A stretch of 64,000 nucleotides of DNA from positions 124,001 through 188,000 of the forward strand of contig NZ_QCZF01000007.1 of assembly GCF_003075095.1 (NCBI RefSeq). Direction: 5' to 3'. Below are positions 19,447 to 43,772 of this stretch, one piece after another. Source of the stretch: Blastococcus litoris. GTDB lineage: Bacteria; Actinomycetota; Actinomycetes; Mycobacteriales; Geodermatophilaceae. The notes below the pieces were generated by a model, which saw nothing but the letters and a program-made list of their open reading frames with translations, ran no database searches and was not told the DNA's origin. Position 1 is the stretch's first letter. Every line of letters begins with the position of its first letter. The translations under genes were made by a program, and so were the position numbers.

Positions 19447-20460
19447 TCAGGCGGCCAGGCTGCGCTCCCGGCGCAGCGCCGACCGGCCGCTCTCCCACGC
19501 GCCGAGCAGGTGCAGCGCGGCCAGCCCGTCCATCGCGAGGGAACAGGCGGCGCCGAAGAGGACGTCGGCGGCCAGCTCGGGCTCCCCGGCGACCAGGGAA
19601 CCGCACATGTCCACCGACGCGATCTGCTCGTGGACGGCGTCGGCCTCGACGTGCTCGTCGTAGAAGACCGTCACCCGCTCGTCGAAGCCGAGCCGGCGCA
19701 GCCCGGCCGAGTAGCGGCGGCTGGGCTCCGAGGACGTCATCTCCACCGCGGTGAGGTGCCCGAGCGCCGCTCCGCGCCACCGCCGGTGCAGCCCGAACAG
19801 CGACATCGTGTTGACCGACGCGAAGGCGGCCGCGGGGGCGTCGTCCCAGAGCGCGCCGTACGTCGCGTCGAGGCCGAGCGAGGTCATCAGCCCGGCGAAG
19901 AGCTCGCTGTGCATGCGGGCGGCGGAGCCGCCGCCGTACTCGTCGGCCTGGATCTCGACCATGGCCGCCTTCGCCCGGCCGGACAGGCGGGGGATGGCGA
20001 AGGTGTGGGGATCGGCCTCCTTGAGGTGGTAGACCGACCGGAGGGCCAGGTACTCGCGCCACTGCTCGAGGCTGCCCTGCTTGCTCATGAACGACGACAG
20101 CGACGGCCCGTCGTCGGCCGCGATGAGCGCGCTGAGCTGCCGGTCGACCGGCTCGCCGGTGACCTCGATCGGGCCGACCAGCTCCCGCAGCGCCGCCAGG
20201 TGCCGGCGCTCCAGCGCGGCACGCACCCGGAGGAGGGCGGGATCCCACTCCCAGTCCTCGGAGACACCGTCGAAGCCGCGGTAGTGGAGCTCGTACAGGA
20301 CGGCGAGGCTGATCTGCAGGTCCTCGTCGGTGAGGGCGCACGCTCCGGCGCCGGCCACCCGGTCGGCCCGCTCGATCGTCTCGGCGGACAGGGACGTCCG
20401 GGTGGCCAGATCGCGGCAGAGGGCAACGCTGAGAGGGCCCCGGGGCTCGGGCAGCTGCAT
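19447..20460 (-). CDS. Haem-oxygenase-like iron-containing redox enzyme family protein
   Basis: This 337-aa all-helical protein is of the haem-oxygenase-like fold (Haem_oxygenas_2 type). Candidate di-iron ligands occur in ALYELHYRGFD, MVEIQADEYGGG, FYDEHVEADAVHE and the MHSELF helix, all Glu/His/Asp-rich. Members of this superfamily include non-haem di-iron oxidases acting on fatty acids or amino acids; the substrate here is unknown. The start at 20460 (MQLPEPRGPLS) is preferred to 20472 because a CATGAT box lies 7 nt upstream. It may be co-transcribed with the GAF chemoreceptor downstream, raising the possibility that its product is sensed. Confidence 0.75.
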   Translation of the reverse strand: MQLPEPRGPLSVALCRDLATRTSLSAETIERADRVAGAGACALTDEDLQISLAVLYELHYRGFDGVSEDWEWDPALLRVRAALERRHLAALRELVGPIEVTGEPVDRQLSALIAADDGPSLSSFMSKQGSLEQWREYLALRSVYHLKEADPHTFAIPRLSGRAKAAMVEIQADEYGGGSAARMHSELFAGLMTSLGLDATYGALWDDAPAAAFASVNTMSLFGLHRRWRGAALGHLTAVEMTSSEPSRRYSAGLRRLGFDERVTVFYDEHVEADAVHEQIASVDMCGSLVAGEPELAADVLFGAACSLAMDGLAALHLLGAWESGRSALRRERSLAA

Positions 20461-38322: not shown

Positions 38323-40698
38323 TCAGGAGCTCTCGTCCACCAGTGCGCGCCGGGGCGCCGCCAGCCACTGCAGGAAGTCGGTCACCGGCATCGGGCGGGC
38401 GATGGCGTAGCCCTGCGCGACGTCGCAGCCCAGCCGCGCGAGCGCGGCGCCGGTCGCGTCGTCCTCCACGCCCTCGGCGACCAGGCGCAGGCCCAGGGCG
38501 TGCGCCAGCGCCGCGGTGTGCTCGACGATCGCGGCGGCACGGTCGTCGCGATCGACGTCGGCGGTCAGGCTCCGGTCGAGCTTGAGCTCGTCGGCGGGCA
38601 GGTGCCGCAGGTAGGCCAGCGAGCTGTACCCGGTGCCGTAGTCGTCGATCGAGGTCCGGACGCCGAGGCGCCGGAGCTGGCCGAGCACCTGCCGGCCGCG
38701 CTCGGGGTCGGCCATGAGGGTGTCCTCGACGAGCTCGAGGGTCAGGGCGTCGGCGGGCAGGCCGTGCCGTGCCAGGGCGGCCGCGACCTTCGAGGGCAGG
38801 TCGATGTCGTTCACGTTCGCCGCCGCCAGGTTCACCGACACCGGCACGCGGTCGGTCCGCCACCAGCGCGCGGTCGCCGTCATCGCCAGCTCGAGGACGG
38901 TGTCGGTGAGCGGCCGCAGCAGGCCGGCCTGCTCGGCGGCCGGGAGCAGCTCGGCGGGGGAGAGCAGCCCGCGCACCGGGTGCTGCCAGCGCACGAGGGC
39001 CTCCACGCCGACGACGCGGCCGTCGCCGAGGTCGACCTGCGGCTGCAGGTGGACGACGAGCTGGTCGGACTGCAGCGCCGTCCGCAGCTCCTCCATCGTG
39101 CGCAGCCGGTCGCCGCTGCCCCCGTGCGGGTCGGGCACGTACACGTGCACGCCCTCGCGAGCGGCCTTCGCGGCGTACATGGCGACGTCGGCGCAGCGCA
39201 GCATCTCCTGCACCGTCGCCGCGGGAACCGGTGCGGTGGCGATGCCGATGCTGACCCCGACGTGCAGCCGGATGTCCTCGACGGAGAAGGGGAGCAGCAG
39301 GAGCTTGCGCAGCCGTTCGGCGCGGTCCTGGGCCTCGTCGAGCGACGCCTCCGGCAGCAGGACGGCGAACTCGTCCCCGCCCAGCCGGGCCAGCAGCTCT
39401 CCCTCGCGCAGCGCGGGCTGCAACCGCGGGCCGATCTGGGCCAGGAGCTGGTCGCCGGCGGTGTGGCCGAGGCTGTCGTTGACCTCCTTGAACCCGTCCA
39501 GGTCGAGGAGGAGGAGCGCGGCGGGCGTGCGGGCGGTCGCCGAGGCCAGGACGCGCTCGGCCCGCTCCAGCAGGGCCCGTCGGTTGGGCAGGCCGGTCAG
39601 CTCGTCGGTGCGCGCCTGCTCCCGCACCTCGTTGAACGCCCGGACCTCGCGGAAGGTGATGCCGGTGCGGGCGATCGCCGCGACGACGCAGCCGATGGCC
39701 AGCCAGGCGGCCGCGGCCGGCAGTTCGTCGCCCCAGCCGATGGCGAGGACGACGAGGCTGGCCACGTTGCACGCCAGGGGGAGGGCGAGCAGGCGCCAGC
39801 CCAGGCGCGTGCGGCTCTCCGCCGCTGCCGGTGGCTGCGGCCGCGGGCGCGCGAGGTGCGCCGACAGCGCGACGACGACGATCGCCGACAGCCAGGTCAG
39901 CTCCAGCAGGCCGCCGTCGACGTAGGTGCCGAGGACGGTCCGGGCGAAGAGGACCAGGTCGCCGACCATCATCAGGCCGAGCGCCGAGGCGACCAGCACG
40001 AGCGTGCGGTCGAGGCGCACCCCCAGGATGGAGCCGACCGCCACGAGCAGCGCCAGCAGCAGGACGTCGGTCGCCGGCATGCCCAGCTGGAGCAGGGGGA
40101 TGGGATCCCGTCCGGGCGCCGGGTCGAGGTACGGGCCGAGCAGGAAGGCGACGCCCACCGCGGTGGCACCGAGGGCGCCGATGACGCCGTCGAGCCACAT
40201 GCTCGGGTGGAAGCGCGGCACGCGGGCGCGGATGAAGCCGACGAGGGTGAGGTAGAGGGTCAGGTAGGCCAGGAGCGCGAGCCCGTCGACGGCGACCGAA
40301 CCGTTCGCGGCGCCGTCGACCCCGGCACCCGCGGTGCGGATCGTGTTGGCCGTGGCGCTCATGAGCAGCGCGACGGACAGGGCCCGCCAGGCGATCCGCT
40401 CGCGCGGCACCCGCCGGCCGGCCAGCCAGCAGAGCGCCGCGGCCGGCAGGTAGGTGGCGTTGTAGAGGACGACGTCGTACGCCGCGTCCCAGCCCGCGCC
40501 CGCCGGGCGCCAGGCGACCCCGCAGGCGAAGGTCAGGAGGCCCAGCAGGGCGAGTCCCAGCAGCACGATCGACGGCGTGCTGCGCGTCGTCGTCCGGTGC
40601 TGGTCCTGGTCCACGGGAACGTCATCGGCGGCGATCGACCGCGACCACAGTCGAAACCGGCCGATTCCGGCCCGGACGGGTGAGACGCGCTCCGTCAC
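38323..40698 (-). CDS. Membrane GGDEF-EAL protein (c-di-GMP cyclase/phosphodiesterase)
   Basis: This 791-aa protein has about eight to ten membrane helices (about 42-345), a GGDEF domain (365-525; intact GGDEF at 440-444) and an EAL domain (535-785). The residue at the I-site is REGE (431-434), so product inhibition is probably lost. The EAL side has EAL (566-568), VSVNLA, LELVED, IDDYGTGYSSL, KLDRS, AEGVED and AQGY, that is, all metal and catalytic residues, so phosphodiesterase activity is likely. The net direction cannot be predicted. The GTG at 40698 overlaps the promoter region of the leuS leader. It converges with the WYL gene. Confidence 0.92.
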   Translation of the reverse strand: MTERVSPVRAGIGRFRLWSRSIAADDVPVDQDQHRTTTRSTPSIVLLGLALLGLLTFACGVAWRPAGAGWDAAYDVVLYNATYLPAAALCWLAGRRVPRERIAWRALSVALLMSATANTIRTAGAGVDGAANGSVAVDGLALLAYLTLYLTLVGFIRARVPRFHPSMWLDGVIGALGATAVGVAFLLGPYLDPAPGRDPIPLLQLGMPATDVLLLALLVAVGSILGVRLDRTLVLVASALGLMMVGDLVLFARTVLGTYVDGGLLELTWLSAIVVVALSAHLARPRPQPPAAAESRTRLGWRLLALPLACNVASLVVLAIGWGDELPAAAAWLAIGCVVAAIARTGITFREVRAFNEVREQARTDELTGLPNRRALLERAERVLASATARTPAALLLLDLDGFKEVNDSLGHTAGDQLLAQIGPRLQPALREGELLARLGGDEFAVLLPEASLDEAQDRAERLRKLLLLPFSVEDIRLHVGVSIGIATAPVPAATVQEMLRCADVAMYAAKAAREGVHVYVPDPHGGSGDRLRTMEELRTALQSDQLVVHLQPQVDLGDGRVVGVEALVRWQHPVRGLLSPAELLPAAEQAGLLRPLTDTVLELAMTATARWWRTDRVPVSVNLAAANVNDIDLPSKVAAALARHGLPADALTLELVEDTLMADPERGRQVLGQLRRLGVRTSIDDYGTGYSSLAYLRHLPADELKLDRSLTADVDRDDRAAAIVEHTAALAHALGLRLVAEGVEDDATGAALARLGCDVAQGYAIARPMPVTDFLQWLAAPRRALVDESS

Positions 40699-40739
40699 CG
40701 CGGCGGACCGGCCGCACCGGCTCGCGGTAGGCTGGCGGC

Positions 40740-40775
40740 GTGACCAGGCGGCTCCTGCTCCACCGGCCGTGCTGA
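40740..40775 (+). CDS. leuS leader peptide (three consecutive Leu codons)
   Basis: A short frame of 11 codons plus stop, encoding VTRRLLLHRPC, starts at GTG 40740, 6 nt after a -10-like TAGGCT (40728-40733), so it would be read from a leaderless mRNA. It has three Leu codons in a row (CTC CTG CTC) and stops inside the 5' arm of a large hairpin that is followed by a terminator, upstream of leuS. This is the layout of a ribosome-mediated attenuation leader that senses charged tRNA-Leu. The peptide itself probably has no other function. Confidence 0.65.
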   Translation: MTRRLLLHRPC

Positions 40776-40826
40776 CCTGAGACGTTCAGACCAGCACGGC
40801 GACCCCTCCTGCGTGAGGGGTTTCTT
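40766..40826 (+). promoter_or_regulatory. leuS attenuator: hairpin plus intrinsic terminator
   Basis: A first hairpin pairs GCCGTGCTG (40766-40774) with CAGCACGGC (40792-40800), with an inner CTGA/TCAG stem. Directly after it, ACCCCTC (40802-40808) pairs with GAGGGGT (40815-40821) and is followed by TTTCTT: a Rho-independent terminator 49 nt before leuS. With the Leu-rich leader frame this predicts transcription attenuation. I could not find an obvious antiterminator pairing by eye, so the switch mechanism is open. Confidence 0.65.
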
Positions 40827-40874
40827 CATGTCTGCCGCCGGTACGTGTACTGCGATGACCCGGGAGCACCAGCG

Positions 40875-43772
40875 ATGAGCCAGACCGCCGATCAGCCCAA
40901 CGCCGAGCAGGCGGCCGCTGACGTGCCGCCGCACCGCTACACGCCGGCGCTGGCGCAGCAGATCGAGCTCGCCTGGCAGGACCGCTGGGAGGCCGAGGGC
41001 ACCTTCCACACGCCCAACCCGACCGGCCGGCTGAGCGCGGGCTTCGAGCGGGTCGCCGATCGGCCCAAGTACTTCCTGATGGACATGTTCCCGTACCCCT
41101 CGGGTGCCGGGCTGCACGTCGGCCACCCGCTGGGCTACCTGGGCACCGACGTCACCAGCCGGTTCCGCCGCATGGACGGCGACAACGTGCTGCACCCGAT
41201 GGGCTACGACGCGTTCGGCCTGCCCGCCGAGCAGTACGCCGTGCAGACCGGGCAGCACCCGCGGATCACCACCGAGGCCAACATCAGGGCCATCAGGGCG
41301 CAGCTGCGCCGGCTGGGCGTCGACCACGACGACCGCCGCAGCTTCGCCACGATCGACCCGGGCTACTACAAGTGGACCCAGTGGATCTTCCTGCAGCTGT
41401 TCGGCTCGTGGTTCGACGAGACCGCCGGCAAGGCCCGCCCGATCGACGACCTGGTCGCCGAGCTGGACGCGGGCACCCGTGAGCCGGCCGCCGGCACCAA
41501 TCCCTCGGGCCTGCCCTGGGCGGAGCTGGACGAGGTGTCGCGCCGCAAGGTCGTCGACGCCCACCGGCTGGCCTACCTGCACGAGGCGCCGGTGAACTGG
41601 TGCCCGGGTCTGGGGACGGTGCTCTCGAACGAGGAGGTCACCGCCGACGGCCGCTCCGAGCGCGGCAACTTCCCGGTGTTCCGGCGTCCGCTGAAGCAGT
41701 GGATGATGCGGATCACCGCCTACGCCGACCGGCTGATCGACGACCTGGACCGGCTGGACTGGTCGGACTCGCTGAAGCTGATGCAGCGGAACTGGATCGG
41801 CCGGTCGAGCGGCGCGAAGGTCCGTTTCGGCTGCGCTGACCAGACCATCGAGGTCTTCACCACCCGGCCCGACACGCTGTTCGGCGCCACCTACATGGTG
41901 CTGGCGCCGGAGCACCCGCTGGTCGAGGCGCTGACGGCGGCTGCCTGGCCCGACGGCACCGACCCGCGGTGGACCGGTGGGGCCGCGACGCCGGCCGAGG
42001 CGGTGCGCGAGTACCAGCGCCAGGCCTCCCGGCGCTCGGAGCTCGACCGCCAGGACACCGGCCGGGAGAAGACCGGTGTCTGGCTGGGCGTCACCGCGGT
42101 GAACCCGGTCAACGGCCGGGAGCTGCCGGTCTTCATCGCCGACTACGTGCTGACCGGCTACGGCACGGGCGCGATCATGGCCGTGCCCGGTGAGGACACC
42201 CGCGACTGGGAGTTCGCGCGCGAGTTCGGCCTGGAGGTCGTCCCGACCGTCGAGCGACCCGACGGCTTCGACGAGGAGTCCGGCGCCTGGACCGGTCCCG
42301 GCCGCATGATCAACTCCTCGAACGACGAGATCTCGCTGGACGGGCTGGACAAGGCCGCCGCCATCGCGGCGATCACCGAGTGGCTGGTCGGGAAGGGCGC
42401 CGGCGAGGCGACCACCACCTACAAGCTGCGCGACTGGCTGTTCAGCCGGCAGCGCTACTGGGGCGAGCCGTTCCCGATCGTCTACGACGAGGACGACCTG
42501 CCGATCGCGGTCCCGCAGTCGATGCTGCCGGTGCTGCTGCCCGAGGTCGACGACTACTCGCCCAAGACCTTCGCCGACGACGACGCCGACTCCTCCCCGG
42601 AGCCGCCGCTGTCGCGCGCCACGGAGTGGACGACGGTCGAGCTGGACCTGGGCGACGGGCCCAAGAAGTACCGGCGCGAGACGAACACGATGCCCAACTG
42701 GGCCGGCTCCTGCTGGTACTACCTGCGCTACCTGGACCCCGCCGACGACGAGCGGATGGTCGACCCGGCGCTGGAGGAGTACTGGCTGGGCCCGCGCGAG
42801 CCCGGGGACGTGGGCGGCGTCGACCTGTACGTCGGCGGCGTCGAGCACGCCGTCCTGCACCTGCTCTACGCCCGGTTCTGGCACAAGGTGCTGCACGACC
42901 TGGGCCACGTCTCCAGCGAGGAGCCGTTCCGCCGGCTGGTCAACCAGGGCTACATCTCCGCCTTCGCCTACACCGACGAACGCGGCTTCTACGTGCCCGC
43001 GGCCGACGTGGTGGAGAAGGACGGGCAGTTCTTCTACGAGGGCAAGCCGGTCAACCGCGAGTACGGGAAGATCGGCAAGAGCCTGAAGAACATGGTCACG
43101 CCGGACGAGATGATCGGCGCGTACGGCGCGGACACCTTCCGCGTGTACGAGATGTCGACCGGCCCGCTGGACCAGTCGCGGCCGTGGGAGACCAAGGCCG
43201 TCGTCGGCTCGCAGCGCCTGCTGCAGCGCATCTGGCGCGTGGTGGTCGACGAGGTGTCGGGCTCCGTGCGGGCTTCCGACGACGTCGAGCCGGCCGAGGA
43301 GACCCTGCGGGCGCTGCACCGCACGATCGCCGGGGTGCGTGACGGCTTCGCCACGCTGCGGTTCAACATCGCGATCGCTCGGATCACCGAGCTGACCAAC
43401 CACCTGACGCAGGCCTACGGGGCGACGTCCCCGGTGCCGCGCGAGGTCGCCGAGGGTCTGGTGCTCATGGTGGCCCCGCTGGCGCCGCACCTGGCCGACG
43501 AGTTGTGGACCCGGCTGGGCCACGAGGGCTCGTCGGCGTGGACGCCGTTCCCGGTGGCCGACGAGCGCTGGCTGGTCGACGACACCGTGCAGGTGGCGGT
43601 CCAGGTCAACGGCAAGGTGCGCTCGCAGGTGAGCGTGCCGGCGGACGCCGACGCCGCCGCGCTGGAGGCGGCCGCGCGGGCGGACGAGAAGATCGCCGGC
43701 TACCTGGACGGGGCGACCGTGCGCCGCGTCGTCGCCGTCCCGGGCCGGCTGGTCAACTTCGTCCTCGGCTGA
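40875..43772 (+). CDS. leuS: Leucyl-tRNA synthetase
   Basis: This 965-aa class Ia synthetase charges tRNA-Leu. The HIGH-equivalent is HVGH (81-84, in [15 protein letters not shown]) and the KMSKS-equivalent is KIGKS (near 731, [12 protein letters not shown]). Between them is the CP1 editing domain ([34 protein letters not shown]). The C-terminal anticodon and tail domains end [12 protein letters not shown]...[14 protein letters not shown]. The ATG at 40875 is used with a weak GGGAG upstream. Expression is likely controlled by the leader in front. M. tuberculosis leuS is elsewhere relative to this block, so its position here is lineage-specific. Confidence 0.97.

Follow-up and report, generated by a model that had tools for sequence, protein, structure and literature searches.

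A leucine-codon leader with abutting hairpins upstream of leuS in Blastococcus litoris and other actinobacteria: a putative attenuator

The leader region of leuS in Blastococcus litoris

In the window, by which we mean the whole analysed stretch of 64,000 nucleotides, the leucine--tRNA ligase gene leuS is separated by a short intergenic stretch from a divergent frame (window 38323-40698, minus strand) which, judging by motifs in its translation, we take to encode a GGDEF/EAL cyclic-di-GMP protein. Packed into this stretch are a -10-like hexamer, a short frame with a run of leucine codons, and two hairpins, denoted P1 and T, the second of which is followed by a T-rich tail (Table 1).

Table 1. 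Features of the leuS leader region in the window and the related leaders elsewhere in the same genome
Feature	Position (in the window unless stated)	Strand	Details
Intergenic stretch	between 40698 and 40875		176 nt, between the divergent GGDEF/EAL-type frame (start 40698, minus) and the leuS ATG at 40875
-10-like hexamer TAGGCT (TANNNT)	40728..40733	+	6 nt 5' of the start codon
GTG start codon of the leader peptide	40740-40742	+	
Leader-peptide frame, putatively leaderless	40740..40775	+	MTRRLLLHRPC*, 11 codons
Three Leu control codons	40752..40760	+	CTC 40752, CTG 40755, CTC 40758; -15, -12 and -9 from P1
Leader stop codon TGA	40773-40775	+	within the 5' arm of P1
Hairpin P1	40766..40800	+	9 bp (40766-40774/40792-40800) plus inner 4 bp; base GCCG/CGGC
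Predicted intrinsic terminator hairpin T	40801..40822	+	8 bp (40801-40808/40815-40822), 6-nt loop
T-rich tail TTTCTTC	40821..40827	+	
Possible Shine-Dalgarno GGGAG of leuS	40862..40866	+	by reading the sequence
leuS, leucine--tRNA ligase	40875..43772	+	ATG start; TIGR00396, 887.7 bits (cut-off 548.4)
cimA leader	L201:1483-1572 (C11 of the window's genome, about 19815-19904)		match of model R1
ilvB leader	L296:313-390 (C11:11312-11389 of the window's genome)		CTC GTA GTC GCC TAG; abutting hairpins; cimA follows after about 8.5 kb

Most details of the original prediction for this region are borne out. The GTG-initiated frame of 11 residues lies 6 nt after TAGGCT, contains three consecutive leucine codons (CTC CTG CTC) and stops inside the 5' arm of a hairpin of 9 bp plus 4 bp, all as predicted. 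A terminator placed directly behind this hairpin is indeed present before leuS, with its first base at 40801 rather than at 40802, so that T begins at the base right after P1 and the two hairpins abut. In silico, T qualifies as an intrinsic terminator ahead of leuS, and the minimum-energy fold of P1 and T together (-36.6 kcal/mol) contains both stems. The spacing of the -10-like hexamer in leuS leaders appears compatible with leaderless transcription; the distance from the -10 element to the transcription start averages 6.3 nt in S. lividans, according to an excerpt of PMC8079986. In the window, transcription would start at or next to the GTG, and the leader mRNA would thus be leaderless.

Hairpins alone were rejected as evidence for the element. 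Both strands of the window were scanned for pairs of abutting hairpins, the first of at least 7 bp and the second of at least 6 bp and followed by a T-rich tail. The window has 3 such places, compared with 3.4 on average in 60 dinucleotide-preserving shuffles; stems by themselves prove little because shuffles of GC-rich DNA give as many. When a leaderless frame ending in the first hairpin was additionally required, 1 place remained in the window, against none in the 60 shuffles. The proof lies in the combination of the parts and in the conservation of this combination, and of the two, conservation is the stronger.

Spread and conservation of the leuS leader

A rule-based search recovered the element in 125 of the 149 regions upstream of leuS: 16 of 16 same-genus loci, 25 of 27 further loci of the family and order, 45 of 60 order-level regions, our own selection from a larger set, and, among the named loci, 39 of the 46 that remained for examination once 34 of 80 had been removed before counting as non-actinobacterial. 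The finder requires GCC[GA] at the base of P1 and at least 2 leucine codons at -15, -12 and -9 (nt from P1), and confines the search for T to a range from 1 nt inside the end of P1 to 3 nt past it. The sequence of the P1 base and the range of linkers are therefore partly fixed by construction, whereas the identity of the codons, the place of the stop and the presence of T are not; by the finder rule, 4 of the 125 elements lack T. The 24 misses comprise 7 named loci, 15 of the order-level regions, and the loci L048 and L055, both of which are matched by the covariance model. The same model recovers 3 of the 15 order-level misses (L140, L151 and L163), and the remaining 12 gave no match at E values up to 0.01. 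Among the named loci, no model match was obtained at E values up to 1 for Nocardia (2), Mycolicibacterium, Aeromicrobium, Buchananella, Aeriscardovia and an Acidimicrobiaceae MAG.

The leuS covariance model R1, built from 33 sequences, matches 191 of 394 genomes of the class and 86 of its 138 genera (E up to 0.01). Among the matches listed, LeuS is encoded just downstream and on the same strand in 28 of the 29 class loci checked; the 29th, a locus of 1613 bases, yielded no LeuS match. The window's element scores 77.6 bits, and elements from the named Streptomyces loci align with its P1 and T, so that one model covers both. Within the window's genome, R1 detects the leuS leader (E 4e-21), a leader upstream of cimA (E 5e-7) and the antisense of the leuS P1 (E 9e-4); there is also a weak fourth match at C1:552355-552436 (L203; E 0.73). 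The leuS leader is found, too, ahead of divergent LeuS proteins that are 38-42% identical to that of the window (L211, L213, L215, L217, L218 and L231), which indicates that the leader has been retained with more than one type of LeuS.

Two separate sets, both of 121, underlie the comparisons that follow: the distinct segments, used for leader geometry and codons, and the elements with a called T, used for linkers and folding. Across the 121 distinct elements, leucine codons are held at -15, -12 and -9 from P1, and the stop codon is located either at +6, within P1 (117), or at -3, right at the P1 base (4); both places would put the terminating ribosome over the 5' arm of P1. When TANNNT was sought 3-9 nt before a start codon lying at most 45 nt upstream, it was found in 118 of the 121 elements, at a distance of 6 nt (75), 7 nt (40) or 8 nt (3) from the start codon, which is ATG in 65 leaders and GTG in 53. 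The other 3 elements have TANNNT further upstream, giving peptides of 24-26 residues; these are L157, L166 and L172 of family f13, which keep the leucine run, P1 and the stop.

At -9, 111 of the 121 elements have CTT and 10 have CTC, the window's element belonging to this minority; CTG never occurs there. Across 39 leuS coding regions (2850 nt each), CTT accounts for 1 of 2928 leucine codons and CTG for 2811, and the leuS of the window contains no CTT and 6 CTC among its 79 leucine codons. According to the part of PMC1183508 cited here, the view that leaders such as that of the leu operon use rare codons, once taken as a rule, is an oversimplification; the codon bias of leaders is explained there by selective charging of isoacceptors, the leaders favouring the codon most sensitive to starvation.

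Both stems show the marks of conserved structure. The base of P1, the sequence of which is partly fixed by the finder, is GCCG/CGGC in 124 of 125 elements and GCCG/TGGC in 1. In an alignment of 33 sequences, the fifth pair of P1 is T-A in 18 rows and C-G in the other 15, without mismatches, and the proportion of paired bases is 92% in register compared with 38-54% in slid controls. Three measures exceed all 500 shuffles of these sequences, namely the percentage paired, the covariation score and the count of cells in which both sides changed. Two do not: how many pairs changed on both sides, reached by 52 of 500 shuffles, and how many pair types occur, reached by 138. In the model-fitted alignment A3 (113 rows, 14 of which are partial antisense matches of P1), four of the five measures lie above every one of the 500 shuffles and the fifth above all except 1, shuffle counts that, in an alignment of this kind, lean towards structure. 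Thus the related leuS upstream regions, aligned as the original prediction had proposed, preserve the leucine run and the position of the stop as well as both stems, each of which covaries, and this supports its reading of the region as a leucine leader peptide with an attenuator.

Among the 121 elements with a called T, the linker between P1 and T, searched from -1 to 3 nt, measures 0 nt in 93, 1 nt in 12, 2 nt in 11, 3 nt in 1 and -1 nt in 4. P1 spans from 25 to 87 nt and T differs between families; that the gap is mostly 0 nt even though both hairpins vary suggests selection on their contact.

Two points singled out in the original prediction are not unusual. Attenuation of leuS had been predicted in 2005 for S. 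coelicolor and S. avermitilis in the form of classical attenuators (PMC1262725, from an excerpt); a leaderless leader peptide is not unusual either, given that the LeuL2 peptide of S. lividans TK24, MRAVRLLLSEPR*, is reported in the cited portion of PMC8079986 to precede leuS, to be transcribed leaderless and to be followed by a hairpin and uridines. The Streptomyces elements share with that of the window the leucine leader peptide, the hairpin, the T-rich terminator and the downstream leuS, and leuL2 in addition shares the three leucine codons and is, by that account, leaderless, as is predicted for the leader of the window. Conversely, the window's element shows the hallmarks of the Streptomyces type, namely a leader with a leucine run upstream of leuS and homologous P1 and T. 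Most Streptomyces elements differ from it in having a longer P1 loop, and the available text of PMC1262725 describes them as classical, with an antiterminator, whereas the folds obtained here contain none that overlaps T. This type of element is therefore already known; sequence comparison here shows its spread over many actinobacterial families. No priority is claimed for this spread, since an article by Lopatovskaya from 2010 (Mol Biol 44:128) may deal with leuS attenuators as well.

Related leaders upstream of cimA and ilvB

The second leader found by R1 in the window's genome encodes MHTVGTIIIS*, with three isoleucine codons; its TAG lies at the base of P1, and T abuts P1. The gene that follows is cimA, encoding citramalate synthase (TIGR00977, 481.1 bits; cut-off 450). 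DNA matching this leader is present, at partial length for many, in 48 of 57 genomes of the family. P1 and T could be called in 29 of 30 cimA loci, with linkers of 0 (20), 1 (5) and 2 (4); three consecutive isoleucine codons are found in 18 of the 29 leaders, and the rest have I-x-I, II or LII. Three cimA leaders of family f15 (L310, L311 and L314) keep the isoleucine codons, with the TAG at the P1 base replaced by the sense codons GGG, CAG and AAG; in these, an in-frame TAG or TAA occurs three codons further, at the apex of P1. No published cimA attenuator was recognised among the papers listed in a literature search.

The cimA model R2 matches 113 of 200 genomes of the order (E up to 0.001), leaders of the cimA and ilvB types being counted together. 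Inspection of 25 R2 places outside the first set yielded 16 of the cimA type and 9 of the ilvB type. Of the former, all outside the family, 14 could be resolved, with a linker of 0 in 12, 1 in 1 and 2 in 1; the downstream gene was confirmed as a citramalate synthase in one case (partial, 298.5 bits) and identified by eye in the others. Among the ilvB-type leaders, 8 of 9 were resolved, with a linker of 1 in 7 and 2 in 1. The gene downstream of the ilvB-type leader encodes the large subunit of acetolactate synthase in the window's genome and in one relative (partial, 390.3 and 351.5 bits). GTA, which occurs in the ilvB leader of this genome, makes up 55 of the 3018 valine codons in the 39 leuS genes.

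Proposed mechanism and alternatives

The conserved arrangement makes it likely that the leader is a leucine-responsive, ribosome-mediated attenuator that controls leuS via leucyl-tRNA. The 11-codon peptide would be translated from the GTG of a leaderless mRNA. When leucyl-tRNA is ample, the ribosome would reach the stop codon in P1 and hold P1 open, so that T could fold and transcription would end; when leucyl-tRNA is scarce, the ribosome would stall on the leucine codons 9-15 nt upstream, P1 would form and leuS would be transcribed. In the latter state, the GC-rich base of P1, lying against T, would hinder the closing of T in the exit channel of RNA polymerase. P1 could act as an antiterminator by contact because T has to close up to the RNA-DNA hybrid, so that a stem at its foot would be an obstruction; since P1 and T have no base in common, steric hindrance by the P1 base is the likely step. 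This step is our preferred mechanism, to which we assign roughly even chances provided that the element is an attenuator.

Parts of this scheme have parallels elsewhere. Leaderless short ORFs encoding polycysteine in mycobacteria, reportedly described as attenuators by Canestrari in 2020, would resemble the leuS leaders in their leaderless leader peptides and differ in that they are cited as cases of translation attenuation. For ilvB1 of M. tuberculosis, a different gene with the control codons LVVI, the cited part of PMC13236596 describes the same logic as proposed for leuS, a ribosome at the stop codon blocking the antiterminator, in this case with mutually exclusive structures. Similar in layout is the three-hairpin model for another operon, ilvBNC of C. 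glutamicum, in which, as described in an excerpt of PMC11857589, adjacent antiterminator and terminator hairpins overlap by only 3 nt and the control codons are CUU and GUA; CUU is thus a control codon there as well, whereas in 117 of the 121 leuS elements, over the range searched, the hairpins share no base.

The preferred mechanism has to be weighed against a classical attenuator, in which P1 would be the protector (1:2) hairpin and, upon a stall, the 3' arm of P1 would pair with the 5' arm of T to form the antiterminator. Classical is the term that PMC1262725, in the portion cited, applies to the Streptomyces leuS elements, and in the window there is a CACG/CGTG complementarity between the 3' arm of P1 and the loop region of T. 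An all-against-all scan of alignment columns (99 rows, Neff 37, antisense rows left out), in which the best 25 pairs were considered, points the other way: the top five pairs all belong to P1 or T, the four strongest to T, and no pair joins an arm of P1 to T among the 25. Four column pairs link the leader or the P1 loop to T (z 3.2-3.9), with complementarity of only 31-55%. The model-fitted alignment favours the stems of P1 and T but should not hide another helix. In minimum-energy folds, P1 and T coexist in 115 of the 121 elements, and only P1 is called in the other 6. Capture of T was assessed by partition-function folding of the RNA from the stalled ribosome to the apex of T, the upstream pairing of the T 5' arm being scored. 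With the ribosome edge set at +13, mean capture across the 121 leuS elements is 0.00 for a stall at -15, 0.02 at -12 and 0.09 at -9, and the fraction of elements with capture above 0.5 is 0, 0 and about 4%, respectively; with edges at +10 and +16, the corresponding counts are 0 and 0 at -15, 0 and 5 at -12, and 0 and 10 at -9. Over all nine stall settings, capture above 0.5 thus ranges from 0 of 121 (6 settings) to 10 of 121, and an antiterminator of the trp type, which would pair with the T 5' arm while the ribosome is stalled, is found in at most these 10 of 121 for the stalls and edges tried. The E. coli controls gave 0.71 for trpL, 0.49-0.75 for thrL and 0.60 for leuL in the same test; these trp, thr and leu attenuators, the leaders of which are not known to be leaderless, share control codons, a leader peptide and an intrinsic terminator with leuS and differ in that an overlapping antiterminator captures the 5' arm of T. 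For the cimA leaders, capture is at most 0.03 (29 loci). Folding with and without a ribosome on the leucine codons, which the original prediction had also proposed, hence leaves the 5' arm of T mostly uncaptured under stalls, and its remark that an antiterminator partner is not obvious holds: neither the folds nor the covariation scan yield an overlapping one. Two results qualify the picture. Without any ribosome, the T 5' arm pairs upstream in 29 of the 121 elements, and a ribosome at the stop, with a mean capture of 0.24 and 17% of the elements above 0.5, does not favour T. Further, when the edge is moved from +10 to +16, mean pairing of the P1 base beside the stall falls from 0.99 to 0.73 at -15, from 1.00 to 0.30 at -12, and from 0.73 to 0.00 at -9; the formation of P1 beside the stalled ribosome accordingly depends on the assumed edge, particularly at -9, the most conserved codon, where a long footprint disrupts the P1 base, as the classical scheme would have it. 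Altogether, we consider the classical scheme distinctly unlikely.

Other roles of P1 and T have to be considered as well. P1 could be mainly a pause hairpin that couples the ribosome and RNA polymerase; during the pause, the RNA-DNA hybrid would contain the 5' arm of T, and the RNA would end within the T loop. This possibility is somewhat unlikely and may combine with the best explanation; by itself, it accounts for neither the control codons nor regulation. Hairpin pauses have a spacing of 10-12 nt, and TG follows the P1 base at 10-11 nt in 94 of 122 elements; a YG of some kind at 9-12 nt is present in 116 of the 122. The TG could, however, be inherited sequence of the T loop; at 10/11, family f2 has it in only 3 of 12 elements, f13 in 1 of 5, f12 in 0 of 2 and f4 in 4 of 9. 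In the cimA leaders, as read from their sequences without a count, CG stands at 9/10 instead. It is quite improbable that the leader is translated with T acting as a constitutive partial terminator, with no response to leucine: the near-fixed CTT at -9, the fixed stop and the fixed distance from the leucine codons to P1 are hard to explain without sensing. This reading draws on the ilvB leader of S. coelicolor, in which, according to an excerpt of PMC1262725, changes of the candidate control codons had no effect; a leader rich in leucine and valine therefore need not work by codon sensing, and, for one sister element at least, the result speaks against simple codon sensing. A T-box or another riboswitch binding tRNA or a ligand has a negligible chance. 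In Firmicutes, leuS is a common T-box target; here, only about 60 nt separate the start codon from T, and T-boxes and other Rfam families gave no match at the gathering level or at E values up to 1, in line with the absence of a T-box noted in the original prediction.

Extending the preferred abutting-hairpin mechanism to the sister leaders, we tentatively suggest a common actinobacterial design for leuS (leucine), cimA (isoleucine) and ilvB (leucine and valine), in which an abutting, GC-rich hairpin would sterically block a terminator with which it shares no base, and the near-invariant, rare CTT would set the stall in leuS.

Altogether, the leuS attenuator, earlier predicted in a few Streptomyces, emerges from these comparisons as an element conserved across many actinobacterial families. 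The switch may use hairpins that touch rather than overlap, a precise and testable claim; if it is true, attenuator finders that insist on overlap between antiterminator and terminator would overlook or misinterpret elements of this kind. With CTT nearly fixed at a single position, the element also offers a clean test of how codon choice determines the sensitivity of amino-acid sensors.
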